DNA from: Trichococcus alkaliphilus | Lineage (GTDB): Bacteria; Bacillota; Bacilli; Lactobacillales; Aerococcaceae | Length of the DNA stretch: 64,000 nt | Reading direction: 5' to 3' | Assembly (NCBI RefSeq): GCF_003008695.1 | Contig: NZ_PXZT01000004.1 | Span: forward strand, 1 to 64,000 | In this document: positions 5,075 through 49,333 of the stretch, in pieces | Numbering within the stretch: the stretch's first letter is position 1 | How the letters are laid out: each line of letters opens with the position of its first letter | The notes under the pieces: generated by a model | What the model was told of the DNA's origin: nothing | The model's input: the letters and a program-made list of their open reading frames with translations, nothing else | The model's database searches: none | Translations under genes and position numbers: made by a program

Positions 5075-6883
5075 TCAAATGTATTTTTCGGTCAAGCGCA
5101 GGAATTCTTCCACGTCTCCCGCCATGATCTCCAAGCCTTGGTTCCAGAAGTCTGGTTGCGTGATATCGGCACCAAGATGCTTCCTAACGAGGTCTTCTGT
5201 CGTCATCGATCCGGTATCCCGCAACAGCGAAATATAGGTTTCTTCAAAATTACCATTCTGCTGCAGCGATTGCGCATAAATCCCCAAACTGAACAGGAAG
5301 CCAAACGTGTAAGGGAAGTTGTAGAATGGGACGTCATCGATGAAAAAGTGCAGTTTGCTCGCCCAGAATAGGGGGTGATAGTCACTCAAATTCTCTTGGT
5401 AAGCCTCCTTCTGGGCAGCCTCCATCAGACCGGACAAACGTTCTACCGTGACAAAACCGTTCATCCTTTCGGTGTAGAATGACTTTTCGAAAAGATAACG
5501 AGCATGGATATTCAGGAACATGGCCGTCGCATTTTCGAGCTTCGTATTGAGCAAGGAAATTTTTTCTTCATCGCTGTTTGCTTCCCTGACAGTAGCGGCG
5601 CTGATGATAGTTTCCGCAAAAGTCGATGCCGTTTCGGCGACGTTCATGGCGTAGCGCGTGTTCAGATCAGGAAGGTCGCGCATCACGTGGGAATGGAAGG
5701 CATGGCCAAGTTCATGGGCAAGTGTGCTCATGTCGCTTGCTGAACCCGTAAAGGTCATGAAAATCCGTGATTCTTTCGATTCCGGATAATCTTCGCAATA
5801 GCCGCCAGGTCTCTTCCCGGCTCGGTTTTCGGCTTCGATCCAGCGGTTCTTGACGGCATCCAAGGAAAAGTCTGCCAGTTTCGGACCGAAGGAGGCGAAG
5901 TGCTCGATGATGTAATCCACTGCTTCGTCGAAGCTGAAGGTTTTTGATTGGAAATTGCCGAGCGAAACAGGGGCATCGACATCATACCAAGCTAATTTAT
6001 CCTTGCCCATCAGAGCGGCTTTGCGATCCAAAAACGAAAGGAACGGCTGTTTGTTTGCACTGATTGCCTGCCACATTGCATCCAAGGTCTCACGTTTGAT
6101 GCGGTTGTAGCGCAAAGGCTCTGCCAAGAAATCCTCATCCTGGTGCGCCTCAAAATCCGCCAAACGGAAACCTTGCAGATGATTCAGTGTATCGGCGAAT
6201 GCTGGAGCAAGATTACCCCAAGCTTTTTCCCATTCGACGAATATTTTTTTGCGCACGCTTGGATCGGGATCGGCATACATCCGATTCATGGCTTGGCCGG
6301 CGGATAGTTCGCCCAAAGTTCCATCAGTCTCCTCGAAAGGAATTTTGATGAAGGATACGAGTGTGTCATAGTGTGCGCTCCAACCGTTGAAACCATCGAC
6401 ACGCAATGTCGCCAATAAGGCTTCTTCCTTGTCGGACAGGAGGCGGCTGCCTTGTTGGCGCCATTCCGACAGGGCGAATGCAAGCGGGGAAAAGGCAGGT
6501 TTTTCCACCAACAGATCCCAATCGTTTTCTTTGACTGCGGTTACTTTTTTCTTCAGAGTCGTTTGAATAATCGTTAATTTGCTGTACAATTGAATTATTC
6601 GCGCATGGATTGCGCTAGCATCCAAATCCGTGACATCGGCTGATTGGACACCCGTTATGAAACTGTTGCATTGCATCAAAGCTTTTGCGTAAAGTTCCTC
6701 ATAATGAAGCAAATCCTGGAAATCAGGATATTCCGGTTTGTCTTGTTCGGGGTCCCAAGCGTTTGCTGCGGATTCAAAATCCTTCAATCCGTCTTGGATC
6801 GACTTTAACTTTTCTTGGAGTGTGGGCGAAGAACTTCCGCCTTCAAAAAATGAGTCCAAATCCCAGGTAAGGCTGTATTTCAT
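5075..6883 (-). CDS. pepF: M3 family oligoendopeptidase (PepF-like)
   Basis: Cytoplasmic zinc metallopeptidase that cleaves short oligopeptides. The thimet-oligopeptidase signature 'STLAHELGHAFHSHVM' carries the HExxH zinc site about two thirds of the way along, followed by the usual downstream Glu region ('NVAETASTFAETI'). Length is about 602 residues, as in PepF/YjbG proteins. Two in-frame ATGs exist: at 6892 the ribosome-binding site GAGAGG abuts the ATG, while at 6883 it lies nine bases upstream, so the latter is preferred ('MKYSLTWDLDSFF'). An extended -10 promoter lies at 6932-6940. It is a single gene. Whether its main role is peptide nutrition, signal-peptide clearance or pheromone processing is not visible. 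Confidence 0.92.
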   Translation of the reverse strand: MKYSLTWDLDSFFEGGSSSPTLQEKLKSIQDGLKDFESAANAWDPEQDKPEYPDFQDLLHYEELYAKALMQCNSFITGVQSADVTDLDASAIHARIIQLYSKLTIIQTTLKKKVTAVKENDWDLLVEKPAFSPLAFALSEWRQQGSRLLSDKEEALLATLRVDGFNGWSAHYDTLVSFIKIPFEETDGTLGELSAGQAMNRMYADPDPSVRKKIFVEWEKAWGNLAPAFADTLNHLQGFRLADFEAHQDEDFLAEPLRYNRIKRETLDAMWQAISANKQPFLSFLDRKAALMGKDKLAWYDVDAPVSLGNFQSKTFSFDEAVDYIIEHFASFGPKLADFSLDAVKNRWIEAENRAGKRPGGYCEDYPESKESRIFMTFTGSASDMSTLAHELGHAFHSHVMRDLPDLNTRYAMNVAETASTFAETIISAATVREANSDEEKISLLNTKLENATAMFLNIHARYLFEKSFYTERMNGFVTVERLSGLMEAAQKEAYQENLSDYHPLFWASKLHFFIDDVPFYNFPYTFGFLFSLGIYAQSLQQNGNFEETYISLLRDTGSMTTEDLVRKHLGADITQPDFWNQGLEIMAGDVEEFLRLTEKYI

Positions 6884-38350: not shown

Positions 38351-39129
38351 AGGATGTCAAAGAAATTATCACATCTGCAAGAAGCATCTCCCGTCTGACG
38401 GCGACAGAAATGATCCACGCCATCTGTGAAGGTTTTGTTGAATTCCACGGCGACAGAAAGTTCGGTGACGACCCTGCTATCGTCGGTGGGATCGCATTGC
38501 TGGATGACATGCCGGTAACCGTCATCGGAACGCAAAAAGGCCATGATGTGACTGAAAATGTCTACCGGAATTTCGGGTCACCGCATCCGGAAGGCTACCG
38601 AAAGGCGATCCGTTTGATGAAGCAGGCGGAGAAATTCAATCGTCCGATCGTAACTTTCATCAATACCTCAGGTGCTTTTTGCGACGTCGATTCTGAGGAT
38701 CGAGGCATCGGTGAAGCAATCGCTGAATCGCTTTTGGTGATGAGTCAACTGACGGTTCCTTTCATCGCCATCTTCATCGGTGAGGGAGGCAGCGGCGGCG
38801 CATTGGCGCTGGCAATGGGCAACGAGGTGTGGATGTTGGAGAATACCATGTATTCTGTCCTGTCCCCGGAAGGCTTTGCCTCCATTTTATGGAAAGATTC
38901 CTCACGATCCGATGAAGCAGCCAAAGTAATGAAGTTGACGCCTGATGATCTTTTTTCATTGGACGTCATCGACAAAATCATTATGGAAACCCGCAGGAAA
39001 GTGGCCCGTAAATCGGATGATGTCATGCTGGAACTGAAGCGGGAATTAAGTGCCAAGCTGAAAGAGCTGAAGCAACTGACTCCAACCGAATTGGTCGAGC
39101 AACGACAAAAACGATTCCGAAATTATTGA
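38347..39129 (+). CDS. accA: Acetyl-CoA carboxylase carboxyltransferase subunit alpha
   Basis: Alpha subunit of the carboxyltransferase. The family motifs 'GIALLDDMPVTVIGTQKG', 'NFGSPHPEGYRKAIRLMKQA' and 'IGEGGSGGALALAMG' are clear. At 260 residues it is the short form used by lactic acid bacteria, lacking the longer N-terminal helix region of the E. coli protein. It is the last gene of the operon and is followed by a strong terminator. The start is GTG inside the accD stop. Confidence 0.96.
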   Translation: MKDVKEIITSARSISRLTATEMIHAICEGFVEFHGDRKFGDDPAIVGGIALLDDMPVTVIGTQKGHDVTENVYRNFGSPHPEGYRKAIRLMKQAEKFNRPIVTFINTSGAFCDVDSEDRGIGEAIAESLLVMSQLTVPFIAIFIGEGGSGGALALAMGNEVWMLENTMYSVLSPEGFASILWKDSSRSDEAAKVMKLTPDDLFSLDVIDKIIMETRRKVARKSDDVMLELKRELSAKLKELKQLTPTELVEQRQKRFRNY

Positions 39130-39144
39130 TTCAAGAACTGCTAT

Positions 39145-39184
39145 AAACCGCCCGCACAGCAGCAGCTGTGTGGGCGGTTTTTTT
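39145..39184 (+). terminator. Terminator of the fab-acc operon
   Basis: AAACCGCCCGCACAGC and its near-complement form a long stem with a 3-nt loop, followed by seven T. Confidence 0.93.
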
Positions 39185-39198
39185 CGCGTTTGCTTTTG

Positions 39199-39207
39199 TG
39201 TTATAAT
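39199..39207 (+). promoter_or_regulatory. Extended -10 promoter of the gene at 39247
   Basis: TGTTATAAT, an extended -10 element, lies 39 bases before the start codon. Confidence 0.6.
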
Positions 39208-39246
39208 GACCTAACAGGAAAATCAGCTTAGATTGGGGTGATGGAA

Positions 39247-40218
39247 ATGGGAGAAAAGATTGTTTTTCCATTTAATTACGAGGGATACTTGAAAAAAGGA
39301 TTGTTGGCATTTGAAGAGGGAAATCTGCAACTTGCGGAAGAATGGATCGGCAAAGCTGTAGCCATCAAAAAGGCGGACGATATCCTCCCGCTGTATCTCA
39401 TGTTGCTGCAGGAGACCGATCAAGCAGAGAAGAGTCTGGAATTGATAACCGAAATGCGTCCGGATATTGCTTCCGCCATTTCGGTGGACGACATCGATTT
39501 CCTTTATTTGAAAGGCTTGTCGCATTCCGGATCATTCGACATGGCCCGTGAGCAAATCGAAGCACGCAAAAATACTTTCGGTCTGTCGATGGAACATCAA
39601 TTCGCTTTGGAGCAATTGGAGGCTGAAGTCGAAAAAGTTGAACTGAAGAATTTGGAGAAAAAACTAAAAAAAAGTTCAGAAATCCTCCAAGCCGAAAAAA
39701 CCATCGATACGCAACCGTTCCACAAGCAACAAGCATACGCGCAACAATTGAAGGAATTGGAGGATGACCAATTCGGCAAGATAGCGCAACGCCTGCTCAT
39801 GAATAACAATCTCCACCGGATGCTCAAGACAGAGATCATCCATCAATTTCTTGCGCGCGGGCTCCATCCGACGGTTACTGTCAGATTGGACGGGACCGAA
39901 GAAAAATTGGATCTGGCTGGAGTTGTCCCGTTGATCGACTCGAAAACTTACAAAGAAGGAATGGCGTATATCAGGGAAGAAATTGCCAATAAAAATCCGA
40001 CTATGGCAGATGCCATGGAGAATGCCTTCTTCATGCAATTATCCCTCCTTTATCCGTTCGAAGACAGGACGATCCTATCCGTGACGGACTGGTTGGAGGT
40101 GCTCTACCGCATTTACAACGGGGCCGTATCGACGGGCGATCCAAGCGAAAAGAGCATCCGCGATGAAATTGAACAATTGGAAAATAAGCTGGCCGATTTT
40201 TTTGGTTTTTTTGAATAA
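39247..40218 (+). CDS. Helical repeat (TPR-like) protein of unknown function
   Basis: Soluble all-helical protein of about 323 residues. The first 130 residues contain tetratricopeptide-like helix pairs ('GLLAFEEGNLQLAEEWIGKA' is the clearest). A charged coiled-coil segment (about 125-165) follows, then a helical C-terminal domain ending in 'ADFFGFFE'. I do not recognise a named family; similar proteins are annotated as hypothetical or TPR proteins in lactic acid bacteria. Start: of three in-frame candidates (39238, 39241, 39247), ATG at 39247 has GGGGTG at the best spacing. It is monocistronic, between the fab operon terminator and the cold-shock gene promoter. Confidence 0.78.
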   Translation: MGEKIVFPFNYEGYLKKGLLAFEEGNLQLAEEWIGKAVAIKKADDILPLYLMLLQETDQAEKSLELITEMRPDIASAISVDDIDFLYLKGLSHSGSFDMAREQIEARKNTFGLSMEHQFALEQLEAEVEKVELKNLEKKLKKSSEILQAEKTIDTQPFHKQQAYAQQLKELEDDQFGKIAQRLLMNNNLHRMLKTEIIHQFLARGLHPTVTVRLDGTEEKLDLAGVVPLIDSKTYKEGMAYIREEIANKNPTMADAMENAFFMQLSLLYPFEDRTILSVTDWLEVLYRIYNGAVSTGDPSEKSIRDEIEQLENKLADFFGFFE

Positions 40219-40242
40219 GTGCCAATGAAGCTATCAGAATAA

Positions 40243-40271
40243 TTGACTCTATAGGGATTCCTCTCTATAAT
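40243..40271 (+). promoter_or_regulatory. Promoter of the cold-shock protein gene
   Basis: TTGACT and TATAAT with a 17-base spacer. The resulting leader is about 55 nt and contains short complementary segments TCTTTG (40284) and CAAAGA (40302). Confidence 0.85.
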
Positions 40272-40332
40272 GGGGGTAACCCGTCTTTGTGAAAGCAGTT
40301 CCAAAGATATGAGTGTTGAAGGAGGATGTACA

Positions 40333-40545
40333 ATGGAATTTGGCAAAGTAAAGTGGTTCAATAATGATAAAGGGTATGGTTTTATTGAACTCGATCAACA
40401 GGATGACGACATTTTCGTACATTTTACCGGTATAGCTGGAGAAGGCTTCAAAAGACTTGAAGAAGGGCAACGCGTTCAGTTCGATATCGCTGAAGGCGTA
40501 AGAGGACCACAGGCCACTAATGTGATCGTCTTGGCAGAATCATAA
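40333..40545 (+). CDS. Cold-shock domain protein
   Basis: Single cold-shock domain that binds single-stranded nucleic acid and melts RNA secondary structure. RNP1 'KGYGFIEL' and RNP2 'DIFVHF' are both present. Starting at ATG 40333, with AAGGAGG upstream, the protein is 70 residues; the longer open frame back to 40270 covers the -10 box and leader and is rejected. The central '[19 protein letters not shown]' has an acidic insert like streptococcal and lactobacillar Csp proteins. Expression may respond to temperature through the leader, but this is inference. Confidence 0.95.
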
Positions 40546-40562
40546 AAAAGTACAGTAAACCG

Positions 40563-40610
40563 CAAAGGTGAGGGGAATCCGTTCAGGATTTTCTTTCACC
40601 TTTGTTTTTT
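40563..40610 (+). terminator. Terminator of the cold-shock gene
   Basis: CAAAGGTGA and TCACCTTTG (with internal mismatches and an inner GAATCC/AGGATT stem) are followed by six T. Confidence 0.85.
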
Positions 40611-40624
40611 AGGATGTGGAACAT

Positions 40625-41035
40625 TTGATAAAATTATTTGTTGATGGGGCGGCTACCGGAAAAGAAGGCTATGCAGCCATCGGGATTTTGATCGTTGAGG
40701 ACGGCGTGCAAGAGCAGATAGGCCTGCCTTTAGAGGACAGAATGGATAATCATCGGGCCGAATTCGAAGCACTTCTGTATGGATTGCGCCATCTGAAAAA
40801 ACACAGCAAACAGGATCAGCTCGTCTTTTGTTACACCGACAGTAAACTCGTTGCCGATTCGATCAGGAAAAAGTATACCAAAAAAGCGGAACATAAGCTT
40901 TTGCTGGAAGAGACCTTGCTGGATTTAGCTACGTTCACTAATTTTTACTTGGAATGGATTCCGGAAAAGGAAAATAAAGGAGCCGATAATCTCGCAAAAA
41001 AAGCGCTCTATCAGCTCACCAAAAAGAAAAAATGA
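40625..41035 (+). CDS. RNase H-like protein
   Basis: Small protein with the RNase HI fold, of the reverse-transcriptase-like/YpeP group of Gram-positives. The acidic catalytic positions are present: Asp in 'KLFVDGAATG', Glu in 'HRAEFEAL', Asp in 'YTDSKLV' and Asp in 'GADNLAKKA'. It is 136 residues with a Lys-rich tail. Start: GTG at 40616 abuts AGGA, while TTG at 40625 has it ten bases upstream; I prefer the TTG. It would cleave RNA in RNA-DNA hybrids if active. No neighbouring gene suggests a more specific role. Confidence 0.85.
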   Translation: MIKLFVDGAATGKEGYAAIGILIVEDGVQEQIGLPLEDRMDNHRAEFEALLYGLRHLKKHSKQDQLVFCYTDSKLVADSIRKKYTKKAEHKLLLEETLLDLATFTNFYLEWIPEKENKGADNLAKKALYQLTKKKK

Positions 41036-41087
41036 GTCTGAATGGGCTGTCTTCCAGAATCCAAAATGCCATTTTCATCACTCAAAA

Positions 41088-41130
41088 AAGGCTCTCTCCA
41101 TCCTTATTTGAAACGGGGATGGCTTTTTTG
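41088..41130 (+). terminator. Probable terminator after the RNase H-like gene
   Basis: CCATCC and GGATGG form the top of a hairpin flanked by AAAAAAGGC and GGCTTTTTTG, with a bulge. It is a moderate terminator. Confidence 0.6.
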
Positions 41131-41175
41131 TTAGCCGCCAGTCGCTTTTTAGTGTATGCGAGTCATAGATTATGC

Positions 41176-41206
41176 TTGACTTGGAGTCCACTTCAAGGAG
41201 TATACT
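41176..41206 (+). promoter_or_regulatory. MerR-type promoter A (aldo-keto reductase genes)
   Basis: TTGACT at 41176-41181 and TATACT at 41201-41206 are 19 bases apart, two more than usual. The spacer is filled by the dyad CTTGGAGTCCACTTCAAG (41180-41197, one mismatch). Over-long spacer plus dyad is the hallmark of promoters activated by MerR-family regulators, which twist the DNA. No MerR gene is in the window. Confidence 0.82.
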
Positions 41207-41261
41207 ATCAGCAACATAGTGAGTTTCTATGTCATCAAATTTGAACTGGAGGAAAATATTG

Positions 41262-42104
41262 ATGGAATATGTAACTTTAAATAATGGTGTCAAGATGCCA
41301 ATTTTGGGCTATGGCGTGTATCAGATACCTGATGCTGCAGAATGCGAACGCTGCGTGTTGGATGCAATCGAGGTAGGCTACCGCTCGATCGATACCGCCC
41401 AAGCATATGGAAACGAAGAAGCGGTCGGCAATGCAATTAAAAAAAGCGGTGTTGCGCGTGAAGAACTATTCATTACGACAAAAGTCTGGATATCGAATGC
41501 CGGGTATGAAAAAGCCAAAGCTTCGATTGCAGAATCGCTGCAGAAACTTCAGTTGGACTATCTGGATCTGGTTCTGATCCATCAGCCCTTCGGTGATTAC
41601 TACGGGACCTACCGCGCCATGGAAGAGCTGTATGAGCAAGGTAAAATCCGTGCCATCGGCGTGAGCAACTTCTATCCTGACCGGTACATCGATCTGGTTC
41701 GTTTCACAAATGTCGTACCGGCCGTCAACCAAGTGGAGACCCATGTATTCAATCAGCAAGTGGATGCGCATGAAATCATGAAAAAATACGGCACTCAAAT
41801 CGAATCCTGGGGTCCTTTTGCTGAAGGCAGAAATGAACTGTTCACGAATGAAACGCTACAAATGATCGGAGACAAATACAACAAAACGACGGCTCAAGTT
41901 GCGCTCCGCTATTTGTTGCAGCGTGACGTCGTGGTGATTCCGAAAACGACGCATAAAGAGCGGATGATCCAAAATTTGGATGTCTTTGACTTTAGTCTTA
42001 CTGAAGAGGATATGGAAACGATCAAAGGCTTGGACAAAAAAGAGAGCGCCTTCTTCTCGCACTACGATCCGAAGTTGGTCGAAAAGCTGGTGAACCGCGG
42101 TTAA
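41262..42104 (+). CDS. Aldo-keto reductase (AKR5 type)
   Basis: NADPH-dependent reductase of aldehydes and ketones, close in type to 2,5-diketo-D-gluconate reductases and YtbE/YvgN. The tetrad is visible: Asp in 'SIDTAQAYGNEEAVG', Tyr in the same motif, Lys in 'ITTKVW' and His in 'VLIHQPFGDYYG'. The cofactor end shows 'VIPKTTHKERMIQN'. Length 280 from ATG 41262, which has GGAGG upstream. It lies behind MerR-type promoter A, so its substrate may be a reactive carbonyl, though this is inference. The next reductase gene follows after 80 bases without a visible promoter. Confidence 0.92.
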   Translation: MEYVTLNNGVKMPILGYGVYQIPDAAECERCVLDAIEVGYRSIDTAQAYGNEEAVGNAIKKSGVAREELFITTKVWISNAGYEKAKASIAESLQKLQLDYLDLVLIHQPFGDYYGTYRAMEELYEQGKIRAIGVSNFYPDRYIDLVRFTNVVPAVNQVETHVFNQQVDAHEIMKKYGTQIESWGPFAEGRNELFTNETLQMIGDKYNKTTAQVALRYLLQRDVVVIPKTTHKERMIQNLDVFDFSLTEEDMETIKGLDKKESAFFSHYDPKLVEKLVNRG

Positions 42105-42187
42105 TGCCAGGCAGATGAACTAATGAAACAGGCATGGACTGCGATCAACCGGCAGTGGTCCTATCCTAAAGAAATGGAGAGATGATG

Positions 42188-43168
42188 ATGGATTATGTGA
42201 AATTCGGCAATACAGGGATGGATGTTTCAAGGATTTGTTTGGGAGCCATGGGATTCGGCGATCCGAACAGCGGCTTCCATAATTGGGTACTGGAAGAAGA
42301 AGAGAGCAGAAAAGTCATAAAAAGTGCGTTGGATTTGGGGATCAATTTCTTCGATACGGCAAACATCTACTCATACGGAGCCAGTGAAAGCATACTCGGG
42401 AAAGCCTTGAACGATTACGCCAACCGGGATGAAATCGTGGTGGCGACAAAAGTACATCAGAAGATGCGCCAGGCACCGAACGGAGGGGGCCTTTCCCGCA
42501 AAGCGATCCTGACTGAAATCGATCACAGTCTGGAAAGGTTGGGCATGGACTATGTTGACCTTTACATCATCCACCGGTGGGACTACAACACACCAATCGA
42601 GGAAACGATGGAAGCTTTGCATGATGTCGTGAAATCCGGCAAAGCCCGCTATATCGGCGCATCAGCCATGTTCGCGTGGCAATTCGCCAAAGCGCAATCT
42701 GTTGCCGAAAAAAACGGCCTGACAAAGTTTGTTTCGATGCAGAATCACCTGAATCTCTTATACCGGGAGGAAGAGCGGGAAATGCTGCCGTTGTGCACGG
42801 ATCAAAAGATTGCCGTAACGCCATACAGCCCGCTGGCTTCAGGGAGGCTCACCCGTGATTGGTCCGCCACTACGAAACGCTTCGAAATGGATCAGGTGGC
42901 GAAACATAAGTATGATACGACCGAAGTACAGGACCGCGTCATCGTGGAACGGGTTGCAGCGATTGCCGAAAAATATGGCGTCGAGAGAGTTCAGGTTGCT
43001 TTGGCTTGGCTGCTGCAGAAGGATCAAGTCGTTGCGCCGATCATCGGGGCAACAAAGGAAAGCCATCTGACCAGCGCCATTTCGGCTCTTGACTTCAAGC
43101 TTTCTGCGGAGGACATCCTTTCTCTGGAAGAACCATACATCCCTCATCATATAATGGGGCACAACTAA
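42188..43168 (+). CDS. Aldo-keto reductase (YajO-like)
   Basis: Second aldo-keto reductase, with stretches resembling E. coli YajO ('FAWQFAKAQ', 'FVSMQNHLNLLYREEEREM'). The tetrad is Asp/Tyr in 'FFDTANIYSYGASE', Lys in 'VVATKVHQKM' and His in 'LYIIHRWDY'. Length about 326; three consecutive ATGs occur at 42182, 42185 and 42188, and GGAGAG favours the last. It probably belongs to the transcript from promoter A. A terminator follows, shared with the convergent dehydrogenase gene. Confidence 0.92.
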   Translation: MDYVKFGNTGMDVSRICLGAMGFGDPNSGFHNWVLEEEESRKVIKSALDLGINFFDTANIYSYGASESILGKALNDYANRDEIVVATKVHQKMRQAPNGGGLSRKAILTEIDHSLERLGMDYVDLYIIHRWDYNTPIEETMEALHDVVKSGKARYIGASAMFAWQFAKAQSVAEKNGLTKFVSMQNHLNLLYREEEREMLPLCTDQKIAVTPYSPLASGRLTRDWSATTKRFEMDQVAKHKYDTTEVQDRVIVERVAAIAEKYGVERVQVALAWLLQKDQVVAPIIGATKESHLTSAISALDFKLSAEDILSLEEPYIPHHIMGHN

Positions 43169-43202
43169 AAAGCTCTTGTGCACAAATCTTTTAACAACAA
43201 AT

Positions 43203-43251
43203 AAGCCCGAATGGATCCCTGGCTGCAGGAATTCATTCGGGCTTTCTTTTT
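43203..43251. terminator. Terminator between the YajO-like gene and the SDR gene
   Basis: AAGCCCGAATG and CATTCGGGCTT enclose a 21-nt loop; TTTCTTTTT follows on the plus strand. The minus-strand tail is weaker. Confidence 0.8.
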
Positions 43252-43303
43252 CGTATCCTGATGAGTGTGCTGATCAGGGTTGCCTTAGTTCAGACTATAG
43301 GGA

Positions 43304-44137
43304 TTATTCCTTGTAGTCCGTTGAGGCGGCCAATTCTGTTTGCGTCCGGAAATTGGCTAAGCGGTTCTCAAGCGTAGAAATGGTGCTGGCCAGCGCTTGC
43401 GAGCCGAGGACCATGCGAAGCGGCGCGGGTGTGATATCCACGCTTTCAATGATCCGTTTTGCCATCTCCGCAGGATTTCCGGGAGCCAGTACCTTTGTTG
43501 AATCAAGCATCGCAAGAAAGCTGTGCGCCGGGTTGCCATCGTATTCAGGCATCAGGTCAGCCACTTGTGCGCTTCCGTAGCGGAATTCGGTCCGTGCGCC
43601 GCCTGGCTCTACAATGGTCACGCCGATATTAAAGGGTTCCACTTCCTGGGCGACAGATTCGCAGAAGCCTTCGATCCCGAATTTCGTGGCATGGTACATG
43701 GAATTGCCCGGGAAAGCGACTTGTCCGCCATAGGAAGATATTTGGATGATGCGGCCGTGACCTTGTTTTCGTAAGAACGGAAGCGCGGAACGGATCATCT
43801 GGATGGAGCCAGTCAAATTGGTCGCGATGATGAGATCCACTTGCTCGTCGCTCAACTCTTCTGCAGCACCGAACAGGCCATAGCCAGCATTATTGATGAT
43901 GACATCGATTTCTCCGTGTTTTTCAAAAGATTCCTTGACAACTTGATGTACAGTGGGCGTATCGGTTACATCAAGGATCTGGCAATCGAACAGCGTCGGG
44001 TACTCCGCAATCAAATCAGAAATTTTGGCTTTATTGCGCACCGTTCCGATCACCGTATCGCCTTTATCCAACAACTGTTTGGTCAGTTCGTAGCCAAAAC
44101 CACTGCTCACACCTGTAATCATCCATGTTTTGCTCAT
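43304..44137 (-). CDS. Short-chain dehydrogenase/reductase
   Basis: Classical SDR oxidoreductase of about 277 residues. The nucleotide-binding motif 'MITGVSSGFGYELTKQLL', 'INNAGYGLFGAAEE', catalytic Ser in 'IQISSYGGQ' and YxxxK in 'YHATKFGIEG' are all present. The 'VTIVEPGGARTEF' motif resembles SDRs often annotated as ketoreductases or retinol-dehydrogenase-like; the substrate is unknown. ATG at 44137 (or 44140) follows GGAGG; an upstream ATG at 44152 lies before that site. It is read leftward from MerR-type promoter B, so it belongs to the same putative regulon as its neighbours. Confidence 0.9.
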   Translation of the reverse strand: MSKTWMITGVSSGFGYELTKQLLDKGDTVIGTVRNKAKISDLIAEYPTLFDCQILDVTDTPTVHQVVKESFEKHGEIDVIINNAGYGLFGAAEELSDEQVDLIIATNLTGSIQMIRSALPFLRKQGHGRIIQISSYGGQVAFPGNSMYHATKFGIEGFCESVAQEVEPFNIGVTIVEPGGARTEFRYGSAQVADLMPEYDGNPAHSFLAMLDSTKVLAPGNPAEMAKRIIESVDITPAPLRMVLGSQALASTISTLENRLANFRTQTELAASTDYKE

Positions 44138-44167
44138 CATTATTGCCTCCATTTCATTTCTATTCAG

Positions 44168-44198
44168 ACTATAGCTCTTGGAGTGGACTCCAAGTCAA
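44168..44198 (-). promoter_or_regulatory. MerR-type promoter B (SDR gene)
   Basis: On the minus strand TTGACT (44198-44193) and TATAGT (44173-44168) are 19 bases apart. The perfect dyad CTTGGAGTCCACTCCAAG (44177-44194) fills the spacer. Confidence 0.87.
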
Positions 44199-44324
44199 GC
44201 GATTTGTTTATTAAAAAATAATGCAGTACGTTTGATGGATTAATTTAATTATACATTTACATTACTGGATTAACCATTCAAAGGCTGGATTCAACATCCG
44301 GAAAATAAAGATGTCCGTTCATGC

Positions 44325-44355
44325 TTGACTTGGAGTGAACTCCAAGTGATACCAT
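44325..44355 (+). promoter_or_regulatory. MerR-type promoter C (NAD(P)-binding reductase gene)
   Basis: TTGACT (44325-44330) and TACCAT (44350-44355) are 19 bases apart, with the perfect dyad CTTGGAGTGAACTCCAAG (44329-44346) between. It drives rightward transcription, divergent from promoter B about 130 bases away. Confidence 0.85.
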
Positions 44356-44388
44356 ACTCCTATCAACTAGAAATTTGAGGTGGAAATG

Positions 44389-44997
44389 ATGAATAAAATA
44401 GTGATTATCGGCGCAACCGGCTCAGTCGGTCGCGTGGCAAGACAACGGTTCCTTGAAAAAACAAATGATGAACTGACGCTTTTTTCGCGACGACCGGAAA
44501 GACTCAAGCCGATTGATTCAACGAGAGAAGTTGCCGTTTCAGGCGATGTAATGAACGCAGCCGACCTGGACAAGGTCATCTCTGGACAGGATGTAGTGTT
44601 TGCATCTTTGACAGGGAACTTAGGGGAAATGGCCAAAGCGATTGTCGAATCGATGAAACGCGTTGGAGTCAACCGTTTGATTTTTATCACTTCGATGGGT
44701 ATCTATAACGAAATTACGGCTTCCGTAGGCTCTTCCGGCAATCTTCGCTCCAATCCGGTTTTGCAGACCTACCGTGATGCGGCGAACGTCATTGAAGCAT
44801 CCAATCTGGATTATACGATCATCCGTCCAGGCTGGTTCGACAGCAGCAACGATACCGATTATGAAATTACCGTCAAGGGTGAGCCATTCGGCGGACATGA
44901 CGTATCCAGGAAAAGCATCGCGGATCTTGTCGTTCGTCTTGCTGCCGATCCTACCCTTTATGTCCGTGAAAGTGTCGGCATCAATCGTCCGGAATGA
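44389..44997 (+). CDS. NAD(P)H-binding atypical SDR (NmrA-like) reductase
   Basis: Single-domain Rossmann protein of 202 residues with 'IVIIGATGSVGRVARQRF' (GxxGxxG) and 'TIIRPGWFDSS'. It lacks the classical YxxxK pair in the usual place, so it belongs with NmrA-like or YwnB/YhfK-type atypical SDRs; these may be reductases or redox sensors. ATG at 44389 is preferred to 44386 and GTG 44380 because GAGGTG is six bases upstream. It is controlled by promoter C and followed after 42 bases by a broken aldo-keto reductase gene, probably once its operon partner. Confidence 0.85.
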   Translation: MNKIVIIGATGSVGRVARQRFLEKTNDELTLFSRRPERLKPIDSTREVAVSGDVMNAADLDKVISGQDVVFASLTGNLGEMAKAIVESMKRVGVNRLIFITSMGIYNEITASVGSSGNLRSNPVLQTYRDAANVIEASNLDYTIIRPGWFDSSNDTDYEITVKGEPFGGHDVSRKSIADLVVRLAADPTLYVRESVGINRPE

Positions 44998-45039
44998 TCA
45001 ATTAGATCCATTATGCCAACAATGAGAGGATGACAAATA

Positions 45040-45478
45040 ATGAACTATACATCAGTTGGCAGAACAGGCATCAAAGTTTCTGAATTGTGTTTCGGTGCCA
45101 TGTCTTTTGGCGGCGACGCAGATGAAATACGGATCGGCTAAAAAACCGGATTCCGGCCGTCTCGTCGATAGCGAACTGAATCGTTTGCGTTATCAAAATG
45201 ACCTGGAACTTGCGGATCGCTTTGCGGCCTTTGCCAAAAAATTGGGCGTCAGTCCGGCAACATTGGCGGTGGCTTGGGCAAAAAGCCATCCAGCCGTAAC
45301 CGCCCCGATCATCGGTGCCCGGAATCTGGCCCAATTGGAGGACTCCTTGGCGGCAGCCGATTTTGAGATGACGCCCGATTTGCGTGCAGAAATCAGTTCG
45401 CTTGCTCTGGCCCCGGAACCGGCATCAGGGCGTTCAGAAGAAAAAACGCTCGGCCAGTTCGGCGTGTGGAAAAAATAA
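45040..45478 (+). pseudogene. Aldo-keto reductase remnant with internal deletion
   Basis: The ATG at 45040 with GAGAGGA upstream opens a normal aldo-keto reductase N-terminus ('[19 protein letters not shown]', on to '[10 protein letters not shown]'), which stops at 45139. From about 45122, in another frame, the C-terminal end of such a protein resumes ('[14 protein letters not shown]' through 'VAWAKSHPAVTAPIIGARN' to 'LGQFGVWKK' at 45478). The middle of the barrel, roughly 200 residues with the Tyr, Lys and His of the active site, is missing, and the junction shifts the frame. The most likely cause is an internal deletion. Neither fragment could be an active enzyme. Confidence 0.85.
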
Positions 45479-45542
45479 ATGCAGTAGTTATTTCAATATA
45501 GTGCAGATAATTTTGGTTCGATAAAATATTTTCAGAAAACAC

Positions 45543-45573
45543 TTGCCTTAATGTGCACTTTAAGTGTTACCCT
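45543..45573 (+). promoter_or_regulatory. MerR-type promoter D (zinc alcohol dehydrogenase gene)
   Basis: TTGCCT (45543-45548) and TACCCT (45568-45573) are 19 bases apart. The dyad CTTAATGTGCACTTTAAG (45547-45564, one mismatch) fills the spacer. Its arms are CTTAAAGT-like rather than the CTTGGAGT of sites A-C, closer to the AdhR-type site of Bacillus, so a different MerR protein may act here. Confidence 0.75.
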
Positions 45574-45620
45574 TGGTTTATGCAAGCGCAAGTGACTCAC
45601 AAGAAAAGGTGGAGAAACAA

Positions 45621-46655
45621 ATGAAAGCAAACATAATGTACGCGGCAGGCGATGTGCGCGTGGAAGAAATTCCAGTACCTGAAATACAGAAACCTACGGA
45701 CGTTATCCTGAAAGTAGTGGCTGCCTGCATCTGCGGCAGTGACTTGCATCCATACCACAAAATGCATGCGCACGAGCACGGTGAAGGCGAAGCAATGGGG
45801 CATGAGGTGCTCGGAAGGATCGATGCAATGGGTTCTGAAGTTTCAGGATTCAAAAAAGGCGATTTGGTCGTTGTTCCTTTCGCATACGGCGACAACACTT
45901 GTCCGTTTTGTAAAGAAGGCTTGATGACATCTTGTGTAAACGGCGGCTTCATGACCGGTTGCCAAGCGGAATACGGCCGGGTGCCTCAAGCGCAAGGCAG
46001 CATGTTCAAATTACCCGACGACATTGACGAAAATTCGCCTTTGTTGCCTTCGTTGTTGACTTTGTCCGATGTATACGGAACCGGTTATCATGCGGCCATC
46101 ATGGGCGGCGTTAACGAGAATACGACGGTGACGGTCATCGGAGACGGTGCTGTAGGCCTTCTGGCTGTCCTTTCGGCGAAGAAACTTGGTGCCAAAAAAA
46201 TCATCTTGATGGGTCGCCACAAAGATCGTACCGATCTTGGGATTGCCTTCGGCGCAACGGATGTCATCGCTGAACGAGGCGAGGAGGGGATCGCGAAGGT
46301 CAAGGAATTGACTAACGGAGAAGGCACGCATGTCGTACTAGAGTGCGTCGGCCTGATGCCCGCTTACGAGATGAGTCTTGGTGCTGTCCGAGCCGGCGGA
46401 GTCATCAGCCGTGTCGGTGTTCCCCAGTATGTCGAAGCCCCAGTCGGATTTGCAAGTCTTTTCGGCCGCAACATTACGTTGACCGGAGGACCGGCACCAA
46501 CGCGTGCCTACATGAAAGAACTTTTGCCCGATATACTTGACGGCACGCTCGAACCTGGCCGTGTCTTCGACGTGACAGTCGACCTGGACGGTGTTCCTGA
46601 TGGCTACAGAGCCATGGACAATCGCGAAGCGTTGAAAGTGTTGATCAGACCTTAA
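45621..46655 (+). CDS. Zinc-dependent alcohol dehydrogenase family protein
   Basis: Medium-chain dehydrogenase of 344 residues that would interconvert alcohols and aldehydes with NAD(P). The catalytic zinc ligands are in 'ACICGSDLHPYH' (Cys) and 'MGHEVLGRID' (His-Glu). The structural zinc loop reads 'GDNTCPFCKEGLMTSC', with three of the usual four Cys; an Asp stands in the first position, as in one known subgroup. The Rossmann motif is 'VIGDGAVGLLA'. ATG at 45621 follows GGTGGAG; the longer frame to 45564 would include the promoter and is rejected. It is controlled by promoter D and is the last gene of the putative carbonyl-stress cluster. Confidence 0.92.
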   Translation: MKANIMYAAGDVRVEEIPVPEIQKPTDVILKVVAACICGSDLHPYHKMHAHEHGEGEAMGHEVLGRIDAMGSEVSGFKKGDLVVVPFAYGDNTCPFCKEGLMTSCVNGGFMTGCQAEYGRVPQAQGSMFKLPDDIDENSPLLPSLLTLSDVYGTGYHAAIMGGVNENTTVTVIGDGAVGLLAVLSAKKLGAKKIILMGRHKDRTDLGIAFGATDVIAERGEEGIAKVKELTNGEGTHVVLECVGLMPAYEMSLGAVRAGGVISRVGVPQYVEAPVGFASLFGRNITLTGGPAPTRAYMKELLPDILDGTLEPGRVFDVTVDLDGVPDGYRAMDNREALKVLIRP

Positions 46656-46697
46656 CCAACAGCTTTACCACCGCAAAGAGGGTATCCTAAATAAAAA

Positions 46698-46757
46698 ATA
46701 AAAGCAGTCCGAACGACCCCGCATCAGCGAGGGCGGTCGGACTGCTTTTATTTATTT
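46698..46757. terminator. Bidirectional terminator between the alcohol dehydrogenase and THUMP methyltransferase genes
   Basis: AAAAGCAGTCCGA and TCGGACTGCTTTT with an inner CGACCCC/GGGCGGTC segment form a long stem, flanked by A- and T-rich runs on both strands. Confidence 0.92.
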
Positions 46758-46764
46758 AAAAAAA

Positions 46765-47937
46765 TTATTTTTCTTTGGTTTCCCTGGCGTCATGCTCTTT
46801 TTTGATTCTTGGCGGGCGCGTTCCCCAATATTGGAAGAAATCGGTACGCAATCTTCCGTTGTAGAGTTTGCGTTTTTTGGTGGCTCTTTCGCCGTAGAAT
46901 TCTTCGAAAAGCAATTCGCTCGTCAGGATGTATTTGCTCCATGTCTTCAATGGACGGAAAACTTGGCCCATCTCTTTGTAGAGTATCTCGATCTCTTCCT
47001 GATCGGAAAGACGCTCACCGTACGGCGGGTTGCAGACGATCGTTCCGTATTCCTTGGTAGTCGTGAAGTCGGCCAAAGCCAACTGTTTGAAAGTGACATA
47101 ATCGGCAACGCCTGCTTTTTCGGCATTGCTCTTCGCGATGGCGATGACATGCGGATCGATGTCCGAACCGCCGATATCCAACTTCACATCGAAATTGGCG
47201 GCAGCTTTTGCTTCATTGCGGATGCGATCCCATAATCCTTCTTCAAAAATGTTCCATTCTTCGGAAGGGAATGAGCGCTTCAATCCAGGAGCGATATTCA
47301 GGCCAATCAGAGCCGCTTCGATCGGAATCGTGCCGGAACCGCAAGTCGGGTCATAGAAGGGACGGTCAGGGAACCAATTGGTCAACATCACTAAAGCGGC
47401 TGCCATATTTTCCTTCAATGGTGCGCCGCCTTTTTCGGAACGGTAACCGCGTTTGAAAAGGCTGGAACCGCTCGTATCGATCGTCAGGATCACTTCATCC
47501 TTGTTGATGGCCACTTCGATCGGATAGAGTGCGCCGGATTCAGGCAAACGGGTACGGCGGTGGTAGTATTCGCTCAGACGATTGACGATGGCCTTTTTGA
47601 CGATCGCTTGGCAATCGGGCACGCTGTACAGAGTCGATTTTTGTGATTTGCCGGAAACAGGGAATTCCGCATCCATCGGTAGGATTTGTTCCCATGGCAA
47701 AGCTTTCGTTTGTTCGAAAAGATCATCGAAAGTTTTTGCTTCGAATTTGCCGAATACGATTTTGATGCGGTCAGCGGTGCGCAGCCACAGGTTGGTGGTG
47801 ATGATGTCCGCTTCCGTACCGGAGAAGTAGGCTTTGCCGTTCTCGACCTGGACATTGTAGCCCATTTTTTTCAGCTCATTGCCGGTGATGGCTTCGATGC
47901 CGCTTGCGGCCGTAGCCATTAATTGATATGTTTTCAT
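46765..47937 (-). CDS. THUMP-domain class I SAM-dependent RNA methyltransferase
   Basis: RNA N2-guanine-type methyltransferase of the RlmL N-terminal half/YpsC group, probably acting on 23S rRNA. An N-terminal ferredoxin-like and THUMP region (about 1-160) precedes the Rossmann domain, which has 'DPTCGSGTIPIEAALIG', 'GGSDIDPHVIAIAKSNAEKA' and the catalytic 'CNPPYGERL' (NPPY). Length 390. AAGGAG precedes the ATG. It sits downstream of rnpB and gpsB on the same strand, a conserved order in Firmicutes. Confidence 0.94.
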   Translation of the reverse strand: MKTYQLMATAASGIEAITGNELKKMGYNVQVENGKAYFSGTEADIITTNLWLRTADRIKIVFGKFEAKTFDDLFEQTKALPWEQILPMDAEFPVSGKSQKSTLYSVPDCQAIVKKAIVNRLSEYYHRRTRLPESGALYPIEVAINKDEVILTIDTSGSSLFKRGYRSEKGGAPLKENMAAALVMLTNWFPDRPFYDPTCGSGTIPIEAALIGLNIAPGLKRSFPSEEWNIFEEGLWDRIRNEAKAAANFDVKLDIGGSDIDPHVIAIAKSNAEKAGVADYVTFKQLALADFTTTKEYGTIVCNPPYGERLSDQEEIEILYKEMGQVFRPLKTWSKYILTSELLFEEFYGERATKKRKLYNGRLRTDFFQYWGTRPPRIKKEHDARETKEK

Positions 47938-47985
47938 TTAGTGCTCCTTATTGTTTTGCCTTAGAAATTGCCGGATAATGCAACG

Positions 47986-48015
47986 AAAAATGGGACAAAA
48001 ATTAGCTTGTCCCAT
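47986..48015 (-). terminator. Terminator between rnpB and the methyltransferase gene
   Basis: ATGGGACAA and TTGTCCCAT form a perfect 9-bp stem; on the minus strand it is followed by five T. It would stop transcripts coming through rnpB. Confidence 0.75.
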
Positions 48016-48052
48016 CCTCGATCGTATTCATTTTGAAGAAAAAAAAGCCTGA

Positions 48053-48433
48053 TTTGTAAATTTCTGTAAGCCATGTTCTGTCGCGCCATCGGAGCCAGGC
48101 CTCTGATGGCGGAGGTAATTATCTATCTGCATTTCTGCCTCTTTCCCTCGTTCATTTCCTTGGAAAGAGTGCCCCTACCAAAGTTTGGGTTGCTCGCTCG
48201 AGGGGTTTACCGCGTTCCACCAGAAAGGTTTCCCCGTCTGCTTCGTCACTGTGGCACTTTCAAGAATACTCAGGCATAGGCAGAGCCCTTAGCCTTTTTT
48301 TCTGCCGTCAATCTAACGATTGCCTTAGCTTATTGTTTCGCTAAGCACGAACACTACAAGCATCTCAGCTTGTGCGAGCATGGACTTTCCTCAGCCTCCA
48401 TGAAGGAGACCGCAATTACCCGAAATTTACAAA
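48053..48433 (-). ncRNA. rnpB: RNase P RNA (class B, Firmicutes type)
   Basis: Catalytic RNA of RNase P, which matures tRNA 5' ends. On the minus strand the conserved 5' core GAGGAAAGTCCATGCTCGCA and the 3' core ACAGAACATGGCTTACAG (the two halves of P4) are present. The ends pair as a perfect 12-bp P1 helix (TTTGTAAATTTC / GAAATTTACAAA), and a T-run follows shortly after. The total of about 381 nt fits class B. It starts about 14 bases after the gpsB stop codon. No strong promoter is visible between them, so it may be processed from a gpsB transcript or use a promoter inside gpsB. Confidence 0.95.
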
Positions 48434-48446
48434 TGTTTTTTTGATG

Positions 48447-48788
48447 CTAGTTTGCTTCTTCGTTGGTTTCATCCAGTTTTGAACCGAATACATGTTTCTC
48501 CAAGTTGGAAAGGCGTTTCAGAATATCAAAATTCGTTACACCGCTGCCGACTGATGATGCATTCGATTGGGTCGGCTTAGCTAAAACTGCTTGCTTCGTC
48601 AACTCATCCACACGGCTCATCAAACGTTCATTTTCGCTTTGAAGATAAGAAAGGTCTTTTTGATAAGATTCATAATCTCTTATGATCATATCCAGATATT
48701 CATCGACTTCTGCAACATTATAGCCTCTCATAGCGCTTTTGAATTCTTTTTGCAGAATATCTTTGGTTGTTAGATTTTTATCTGCCAT
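48447..48788 (-). CDS. gpsB: Cell division protein GpsB
   Basis: DivIVA-like cytoplasmic protein that couples septal and lateral wall synthesis by binding penicillin-binding proteins. The N-terminal domain 'LTTKDILQKEFKSAMRGYN' with 'VAEVDEYLDMIIRDYE' is diagnostic; a coiled coil and Asn/Ser-rich linker lead to the short C-terminal trimerising helix ('DILKRLSNLEKHVFG'). Length 113. An extended -10 element lies upstream at 48826-48834. Confidence 0.95.
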   Translation of the reverse strand: MADKNLTTKDILQKEFKSAMRGYNVAEVDEYLDMIIRDYESYQKDLSYLQSENERLMSRVDELTKQAVLAKPTQSNASSVGSGVTNFDILKRLSNLEKHVFGSKLDETNEEAN

Positions 48789-48825
48789 ATTTGCACACCT
48801 CGTTAGTTGTCCTTGTTACCTAAAC

Positions 48826-48834
48826 AGTATAGCA
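48826..48834 (-). promoter_or_regulatory. Extended -10 promoter of gpsB
   Basis: On the minus strand TGCTATACT forms an extended -10 element about 40 bases before the gpsB start. Confidence 0.6.
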
Positions 48835-48958
48835 TAAAATCGCAATATTAATAAGCAAATATTCTAATCAACATCATATCAGGCTTTTCGCATAAACTCA
48901 ACCTAATTTTTTATTGTCCCCCCCCGGCGTTCAGGAAAGACCTAAGTGATCGGAAAGC

Positions 48959-49333
48959 CTAATAGGGCATGGCTCCTTGAAAATTGATGATGATATAGTG
49001 CTTGTTTCCGGAGTTGGTTGTCGTGATGGATAAATTTTCATTAAGAACAGGCTGCTTCCCGAATATTTCCAACAGAAAACTCTTGAAGACTTTATCCGTT
49101 TTGGATTGCAGGACCTCTTTGAAGAGTTCGCTTTTTGTGGCCGGATCGATGCCATCTTCGAAAATGATTTTTTCATCTGCTGTAAGGTAATCATCTTCCA
49201 ACACTATTTCAGCCCTTCGGCCGAATGGAATCTGGATTTTCAAGCTTTCTTTGTATTCTGTTTTCTGGTAATCACGGGCGATGCGCGTCACTAAGTAATC
49301 GATGGATTGTCTGATCTCTGATTGTTCTGTCAT
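48959..49333 (-). CDS. Protein of unknown function upstream of gpsB
   Basis: A 124-residue soluble protein without membrane segments or cysteines, with alternating helices and strands ('KIQIPFGRRAEIVLEDD', 'KHYIIINFQGAMPY'). I do not recognise its family. The ATG at 49333 is preceded by GGAGGG; an upstream TTG at 49348 overlaps that site and is rejected. It is divergent from the DUF3013 gene. In other Firmicutes the gene before gpsB is often ypsA (DUF1273), which this is not: it is shorter and lacks any similarity I can see. Confidence 0.72.
   Translation of the reverse strand: MTEQSEIRQSIDYLVTRIARDYQKTEYKESLKIQIPFGRRAEIVLEDDYLTADEKIIFEDGIDPATKSELFKEVLQSKTDKVFKSFLLEIFGKQPVLNENLSITTTNSGNKHYIIINFQGAMPY

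Follow-up and report, generated by a model that had tools for sequence, protein, structure and literature searches.

The stretch analyzed here, called the window throughout, is the first 64,000 bases of contig NZ_PXZT01000004.1 of Trichococcus alkaliphilus (G000:C20:1-64000, in a genome of 2,964,741 bases and 25 contigs). It contains a cluster of oxidoreductase genes behind promoters resembling those that MerR-family proteins activate. Pfam agrees with an earlier sequence-only reading of this DNA on six oxidoreductase loci: two aldo/keto reductases (AKRs), a short-chain dehydrogenase (SDR), an NAD(P)-binding or NmrA-like reductase, the remnant of a further AKR, and a zinc alcohol dehydrogenase (ADH). 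AKR1 (41262..42104, + strand, 280 amino acids) has DkgA and DkgB as its closest named models, and AKR2 (42188..43168, + strand, 326 amino acids), the second gene of the same operon, has a methylglyoxal reductase of the YdjG type; both score below cut-off. SDR1 (43304..44137, - strand, 277 amino acids) is a classical SDR over the cut-off of NF005065, and the NmrA-like or NAD(P)H-binding reductase (44389..44997, + strand, 202 amino acids) matches NAD_binding_10. The AKR3 pseudogene (45040..45478, + strand) has lost its frame and has no dyad of its own. It is without a 560-bp interior stretch that a relative has, with a 3-bp overlap at the alignment junction, and intact copies of 332 amino acids are found in four relatives (L056, L071, L075, and L081). 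The ADH gene (45621..46655, + strand, 344 amino acids), assigned by Pfam, completes the cluster. The window enzymes probably reduce reactive carbonyl compounds.

Four promoters stand before these genes, each with exactly 19 bp between its -35 and -10 hexamers and with an 18-bp dyad in this spacer. The promoter of the AKR1-AKR2 operon (41176-41206, + strand) reads TTGACT-N19-TATACT, with its dyad CTTGGAGTCCACTTCAAG at 41180-41197. That of SDR1 (44168-44198, - strand) reads TTGACT-N19-TATAGT, and that of the NmrA-like gene (44325-44355, + strand) TTGACT-N19-TACCAT; both carry perfect 8+8 dyads, CTTGGAGT-CC-ACTCCAAG at 44177-44194 and CTTGGAGT-GA-ACTCCAAG at 44329-44346, respectively. The candidate promoter of ADH (45543-45573, + strand) reads TTGCCT-N19-TACCCT, in which the -10 box is weak, and its dyad at 45547-45564 is CTTAATGTGCACTTTAAG. 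The first three promoters have the operator CTTGGAGTNNACTCCAAG in common. The sequence-only reading had placed four promoters at just these positions and had recognized in them the architecture of MerR activation. The spacing is indeed found at all four, and the spacer dyad is conserved for three.

Such an arrangement is hard to obtain by chance. Within the window, the pattern TTGNCTTNNNGTNNACNNNAAGNNNTA at up to two mismatches matches only the four promoters, with 0.05 matches expected from 100 shuffles, none of which gave four. A scan that uses no operator letters, but requires a 19-bp spacer, at least 4/6 matches per box, and at least 7/9 paired dyad steps in the spacer, finds three promoters in the window versus a mean of 0.025 and a maximum of 2 in 200 Markov-resampled sequences; it misses the ADH site because the -10 box there is poor. 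The 18-bp dyad alone is uninformative, occurring at three mismatches in 10 places per strand versus 6 in the reversed control, and a dyad-only match at C11:122504 has no promoter boxes, whereas the promoter-extended pattern is clean. Dyads arising by accident in ordinary sigma-A promoters could be argued solely from the weak ADH site. The shuffles, resampled sequences, and reversed control, together with 105 sites versus 0 in the genus (see below), lead us to reject this explanation for three of the four sites and to regard it as scarcely credible for the system. An RNA switch downstream of the promoters was likewise rejected, since Rfam over positions 39000-49000 gives no riboswitch-type RNA and matches RNase P alone. 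That match is an RNase P RNA of class B (RF00011, 338 bits) at 48062-48427 on the - strand.

The window itself encodes no MerR protein. A five-MerR profile, applied at E up to 10 to 605 open reading frame (ORF) segments of at least 50 amino acids, found no match, and the window's contig carries none of the seven MerR_1 matches in the genome, so that an overlooked local MerR gene can be rejected. Two of the seven, R1 (G000:C6:42321-42707) and R2 (G000:C23:127788-128144), score 63.9 and 55.8 bits against the MerR helix-turn-helix model PF13411, whose cut-off is 21.6. In the whole genome, CTTGGAGTNNACTCCAAG at up to one mismatch occurs in eight places: three in the window, one ~60 bases before R1 on C6, two on C23, and two on C19. 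The C23 pair lies in the divergent promoter region between an AKR gene and an operon of R2 with a carboxymuconolactone decarboxylase (CMD) gene, and the C19 pair precedes a cyclophilin-like gene and an SDR gene. R1 and R2 therefore both stand behind the same operator as the window enzymes. The sequence-only reading had held that the window lacks the regulator and that control is exerted in trans, and as a check had proposed looking for MerR genes with such a site in their own promoter; on all three points the genome agrees with it. A search with R1 among named genomes gave nine loci, of which seven are from Trichococcus (89-99% identity) and one is from a distant metagenome-assembled genome of Clostridia. 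The ninth (MUZD01000018.1, L018) is labelled Sedimentibacter sp. SX930, and its R1 is of the Trichococcus type with 97% identity, so this label looks wrong. Also in the window's genome, a second AKR2 paralogue (72%) lies at G000:C24:54488-55465, ~10 kb from a CTTAAAGTGCACTCTAGG promoter (C24:44070) that belongs to a small CMD-type gene.

The operator is widespread in the genus. At up to three mismatches, its promoter-extended form has 105 matches in 12 of 13 Trichococcus genomes, and the reversed control has none in 13; completeness is 51% in the one genome that lacks a match. The final T of the -10 box lies outside the search pattern, yet is present at 104 of the 105 sites. A single genome has as many as 12 candidate promoters. 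Recurrent targets are R1 and AKR4 (11 genomes each), SDR2 (10), the CMD-R2 operon (9), AKR5 (8), AKR1 or AKR2 (8), SDR1 (7), and the NmrA-like gene (7), and smaller groups comprise histidine phosphatase, cyclophilin-like, MFS, DUF4440, second NmrA-like, small CMD, and flavodoxin genes, as classified by Pfam. Only three sites have no assigned target. Orthologues of R1 (at least 89% identity) are found in 11 of the 13 genomes, being missing from G005 and the half-complete G011, and all 11 have the operator before R1.

These dyads could in principle be decaying leftovers of a local regulator that has been lost. The cluster does decay in several species, as seen in the AKR3 deletion here and in SDR1 remnants elsewhere. 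However, the dyads follow the integrity of the genes. All eight AKR2 orthologues (at least 96% identity) have a dyad, either directly upstream or before AKR1, in a count that excludes 13 paralogues of 72-74% and in which the G004 copy aligned only from residue 56. All seven uninterrupted SDR1 copies keep theirs, as do all seven NmrA-like copies, of which those in G006 and G010 are shorter, whereas the SDR1 remnants of G007 (one stop), G008, and G009 (both fragments) have none. Conservation at the promoters also exceeds that of the surrounding intergenic sequence: between SDR1 and the NmrA-like gene, positions that do not vary among seven genomes make up 50 of 62 promoter columns, versus 32 of 126 columns in between. 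Since R1 and R2 with matching operators exist in the genome as well, we consider orphaned operators very improbable.

Other genera provide the evidence on which regulator is involved. An order-level survey of 295 genomes (R1 at E up to 1e-40; operator at up to two mismatches) found R1 in 46, the operator in 89, and both in 38, with 0 in the reversed control; the corresponding Fisher p of 8e-16 is inflated because the surveyed genomes are related. We also inspected 41 R1 neighbourhoods of 12.5 to 15 kb outside the genus, counting dyads and AKR2 homologues by eye. The dyad (up to three mismatches) is present in 38 of them and an AKR2 homologue of 69-85% identity in 14. At one locus (L211), R1 is surrounded by homologues of AKR1 (72%), SDR1 (73%), CMD (75%), and AKR2 (83%), with three dyads. 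Homologues of the same enzymes thus occur in cis with R1, and because R1 accompanies them in some genera, they are likely to be its distant targets in Trichococcus. In probable Listeria genomes, whose R1 resembles or equals the Listeria protein of known structure described below, the operator stands before R1 and before an unlinked AKR gene (L250, L251, and L253). Control in trans, which the sequence-only reading had considered unusual, is therefore not peculiar to Trichococcus.

By sequence, the solved structure closest to R1 (E 4e-55) is that of LMOf2365_2715 from Listeria monocytogenes, which has been linked to PDB 3GP4 (PMC5045206). In the L218 genome, R1 equals the 3GP4 chain over a compared stretch of 71 residues following the start, and dyads occur before R1 and before an unlinked AKR gene (L250). 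Olive leaf extract is reported to raise expression of LMOf2365_2715 strongly, both at 3.5 h and at 24 h (PMC8740304). Our literature searches found no published regulon for this protein, and a search by operator letters found no occurrence of four long operator strings among the papers that it listed. As far as these searches go, the Trichococcus regulon has not been described.

These observations of promoter architecture, conservation, operators before regulator genes, and linkage between R1 and the enzymes in other genera make it likely, in our judgment, that the AKR1-AKR2, SDR1, and NmrA-like promoters belong to one genome-wide MerR regulon acting in trans, with R1 most likely as its main regulator and R2 as an overlapping paralogue. 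R1 is the best candidate because in other genera it often adjoins homologues of the window enzymes behind the same operator. MerR proteins are described as both repressing and activating long-spacer promoters through DNA distortion (PMC9909328). In our model, the 19-bp spacer would keep each promoter weak, and a MerR dimer bound to the dyad would kink the DNA and realign the -35 and -10 boxes, leading to activation. R1, whose own gene lies behind the same dyad, would regulate itself, and R2 would mainly serve its own CMD/AKR locus through an overlapping operator. The inducing signal might be a reactive carbonyl, a quinone, or a plant phenolic, a proposal based on the enzyme set and on the response of LMOf2365_2715 to olive leaf extract.

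Several findings weigh against this assignment to R1. In the order-level survey, 51 of the 89 genomes with a site lack R1 at the cut-off, and 8 of the 46 genomes with R1 lack a site at two mismatches; the operator must therefore be common to several MerR subgroups. No AKR2 homologue lies near R1 in 27 of the 41 neighbourhoods outside the genus. Expression of LMOf2365_2715 is reported to be lowered 3.4-fold with bile (PMC8636025), so that the signal, as far as this report indicates, would not be generic stress. Finally, G005, which is 100% complete, has no R1 and has kept the dyads of SDR1 and the NmrA-like gene. It possesses an R2-type protein in which the cysteine discussed below is retained, and R2 or another paralogue must therefore act in this genome.

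The case of G005, along with the position of the R2 operon behind the same operator, raises the question of whether the window promoters answer chiefly to R2 rather than to R1, or equally well to either of them. We consider this unlikely, although it is the alternative that deserves the most attention, because the operators persist in two genomes from which R2 has gone: the CMD gene and R2 are remnants in G007, R2 has no match in G012, and R1 is retained in both. Moreover, degenerate sequences (CAGG, CAAC) make up most of the second half-sites at the R2 locus, in contrast to window-type sites. Across the genus, 22 of 22 window-type sites end in CAAG, as do 9 of 11 sites of R1 itself, in comparison with 2 of 20 CMD/AKR4 sites. 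In other genera, too, R1 is the regulator that is linked to these enzymes.

Two further observations concern MerR genes in the genus. At L100 (G007:C17), fused remnants of CMD and R2 lie beside an intact AKR4 with its dyad, a case in which a local regulator has been lost. A further MerR paralogue, with the helix PIDTIRYYE and a variant dyad of its own, is encoded in G002, G005, and G006 (L065, L087, and L094), where its contig also carries promoters of this operator class that belong to phosphatase and/or AKR5 genes. This paralogue is not among the MerR matches of the window's genome.

The fourth promoter, that of ADH, probably lies outside the main regulon. Its dyad, CTTAATGT...ACTTTAAG, belongs to a different and weaker half-site class than the remaining three and is therefore not the same operator. 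An ADH orthologue is present in 4 of the 13 genus genomes. Among relatives, L075 carries CTTAATGTGCACTTTAAG unchanged, L056 has an altered version, and L081 lacks the site despite having the ADH gene. The proposal that four parallel promoters form one regulon with dyads conserved in relatives consequently holds for three of them and is doubtful for ADH: of three relatives that have this gene, one lacks the site and another carries a changed form. R3 and R4, two AdhR-like paralogues on contig C16 that bear a cysteine, offer a different explanation. The dyad before R4 is CTTAACCT...ACTTTAAG, and its operator CTTAACCTTCACTTTAAG has the same second half as the ADH site. The ADH promoter may thus be controlled by R4. 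A weak effect of R1 there may also occur, because R1 self-sites of other genera tolerate ACTTTAAG or CTTAAAGT halves.

If R3 and R4, with the cysteine that they retain, ran the whole cluster, it would be a classical AdhR regulon, for which the half-site common to R4 and ADH could be cited. This is improbable, as the recognition helices of R3 and R4 (TAATLRYYE and TAVTLRYYE) are unlike those of R1 and R2, which have S-x-D, and the dyads of 12 R4-type genes comprise only three sequences, all of CTTAA[CT]CT types and none of them CTTGGAGT. Control by R3 or R4 is plausible for the ADH promoter only. A second operator class, CTTAAC/CTTCAC...GTTAAG, was seen in 19-bp promoters at three loci of the window's genome: at L129 (C16) ~2952-2978, before an SDR gene beside R3; at L128 (C24) ~48244, before a gene whose product we take to be a DUF3737 protein; and at L132 (C19) ~190422, before a gene that appeared hydrolase-like by eye. 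These sites possibly represent an R3 regulon. Elsewhere in L129 (G000:C16, ~5700-6100), R4 with its upstream dyad is followed by what by eye is a transketolase-like frame, and in other genera (L177 and L179) transketolase/DXS-like frames occur behind CTTGGAGT or CTTAGAGT operators.

The four regulators have the same best NCBIfam model, NmlR (NF041849), with 160.8 bits for R1, 117.5 for R2, 127.3 for R3, and 140.7 for R4, all short of its curated threshold of 175; for R3 and R4, the sequences scored had been trimmed at their ends. A cysteine is reported to be absolutely conserved in the NmlR clade (Cys52 of AdhR and Cys54 of Haemophilus influenzae NmlR), and the C52A mutant of AdhR to be unresponsive (PMC4776306). 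At this position, R1 has Q, as does LMOf2365_2715, and R2 has E. Because R1 contains no cysteine anywhere, it cannot sense through one. The same is true of 46 of the 47 distinct proteins at least 60% identical to R1, the exception having a cysteine two residues further on. We prefer this count by identity to a count by motif, which matched 47 proteins, 45 of them free of cysteine, and included L244, which is not R1-type. The sequence-only reading had suggested an AdhR/NmlR-type regulator. R1 does group with such proteins within the MerR family, yet it scores below the NmlR cut-off, and the thiol sensing of that group does not transfer to a protein devoid of cysteine. The cysteine-bearing AdhR-like proteins of this genome, R3 and R4, are distinct genes, and the operator of R4 is of another class.

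We aligned 107 proteins, thinned them at 93% identity, and built a tree from the 67 that remained. Of those aligned, 104 came from a set of 107 distinct proteins, from which one shorter than 100 amino acids and the L024 and L231 proteins were omitted, and three were PDB stretches; thinning removed the 3GP4 stretch. An inner clade of 42 proteins requires two changes of the cysteine trait, in a tree with some weak forks and few columns. The cysteine would thus have been lost about twice, in R1 and in R2. A link between operator class and cysteine loss was rejected, since cysteine-bearing regulators in L228, L238, and L244 also have CTTGGAGT-type operators.

Comparison with known systems shows both resemblances and differences. 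SoxR, CueR, ZntR, and other MerR-family activators likewise use a dyad in a 19-20-bp spacer (PMC9909328); they respond to other ligands, and R1 is far below their NCBIfam cut-offs. The AdhR (YraB) regulon of Bacillus subtilis resembles the present one in having a MerR-family regulator and aldehyde-related targets that include an alcohol dehydrogenase and a carboxymuconolactone decarboxylase, but AdhR needs Cys52 for sensing (PMC4776306). AdhR also adjoins an adhA-type alcohol dehydrogenase, unlike the arrangement in the Trichococcus window with its lack of a MerR gene; in the neighbourhood of R1 (L008, 2500-9000) no such linkage was found either, there being no ADH among ORFs of at least 90 amino acids read by eye. 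The R1 operator is of the CTTGGAGT type, and the AdhR box of B. subtilis, CTTAAAG, bears a closer resemblance to the ADH site and to certain R1 self-sites in other genera. The NmlR proteins of Neisseria, Haemophilus, and Streptococcus are also small and come from the same part of the MerR family. R1 to R4 score below the NmlR cut-off, and R1 and R2 lack the conserved cysteine, as described above; the present regulon would also comprise many promoters, in place of a single adhC locus. Taken together, the observation of the sequence-only reading holds and its interpretation is mostly right, with the likely regulator now located and its kind corrected to an NmlR-like, cysteine-free MerR protein that would act on scattered promoters.

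How such a protein might perceive its inducer can be addressed only tentatively. One possibility, to which we give somewhat less than even weight, is that this NmlR-like branch kept its operator and its carbonyl-reductase targets while dropping the cysteine about twice, and that ligand binding or mixed dimers took the place of the thiol switch. As a guess, R1 might directly bind a carbonyl, a quinone, or a product, or it might form mixed dimers with a cysteine-bearing paralogue. In the latter case, the paralogue would carry the sensor, and R1 would supply dosage and DNA binding.

The promoters described here provide a concrete candidate regulon of multiple genes for a MerR group in which a structure has been solved but for which our literature searches turned up no regulon, and the operator allows targets to be read off from genomes of the order. 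They also offer a natural experiment on sensing, in which related regulators that share one operator either have or lack the cysteine considered essential for aldehyde sensing. If the proposal is true, the cysteine thiol switch would have been replaced by another mode of sensing in the R1/R2 branch.

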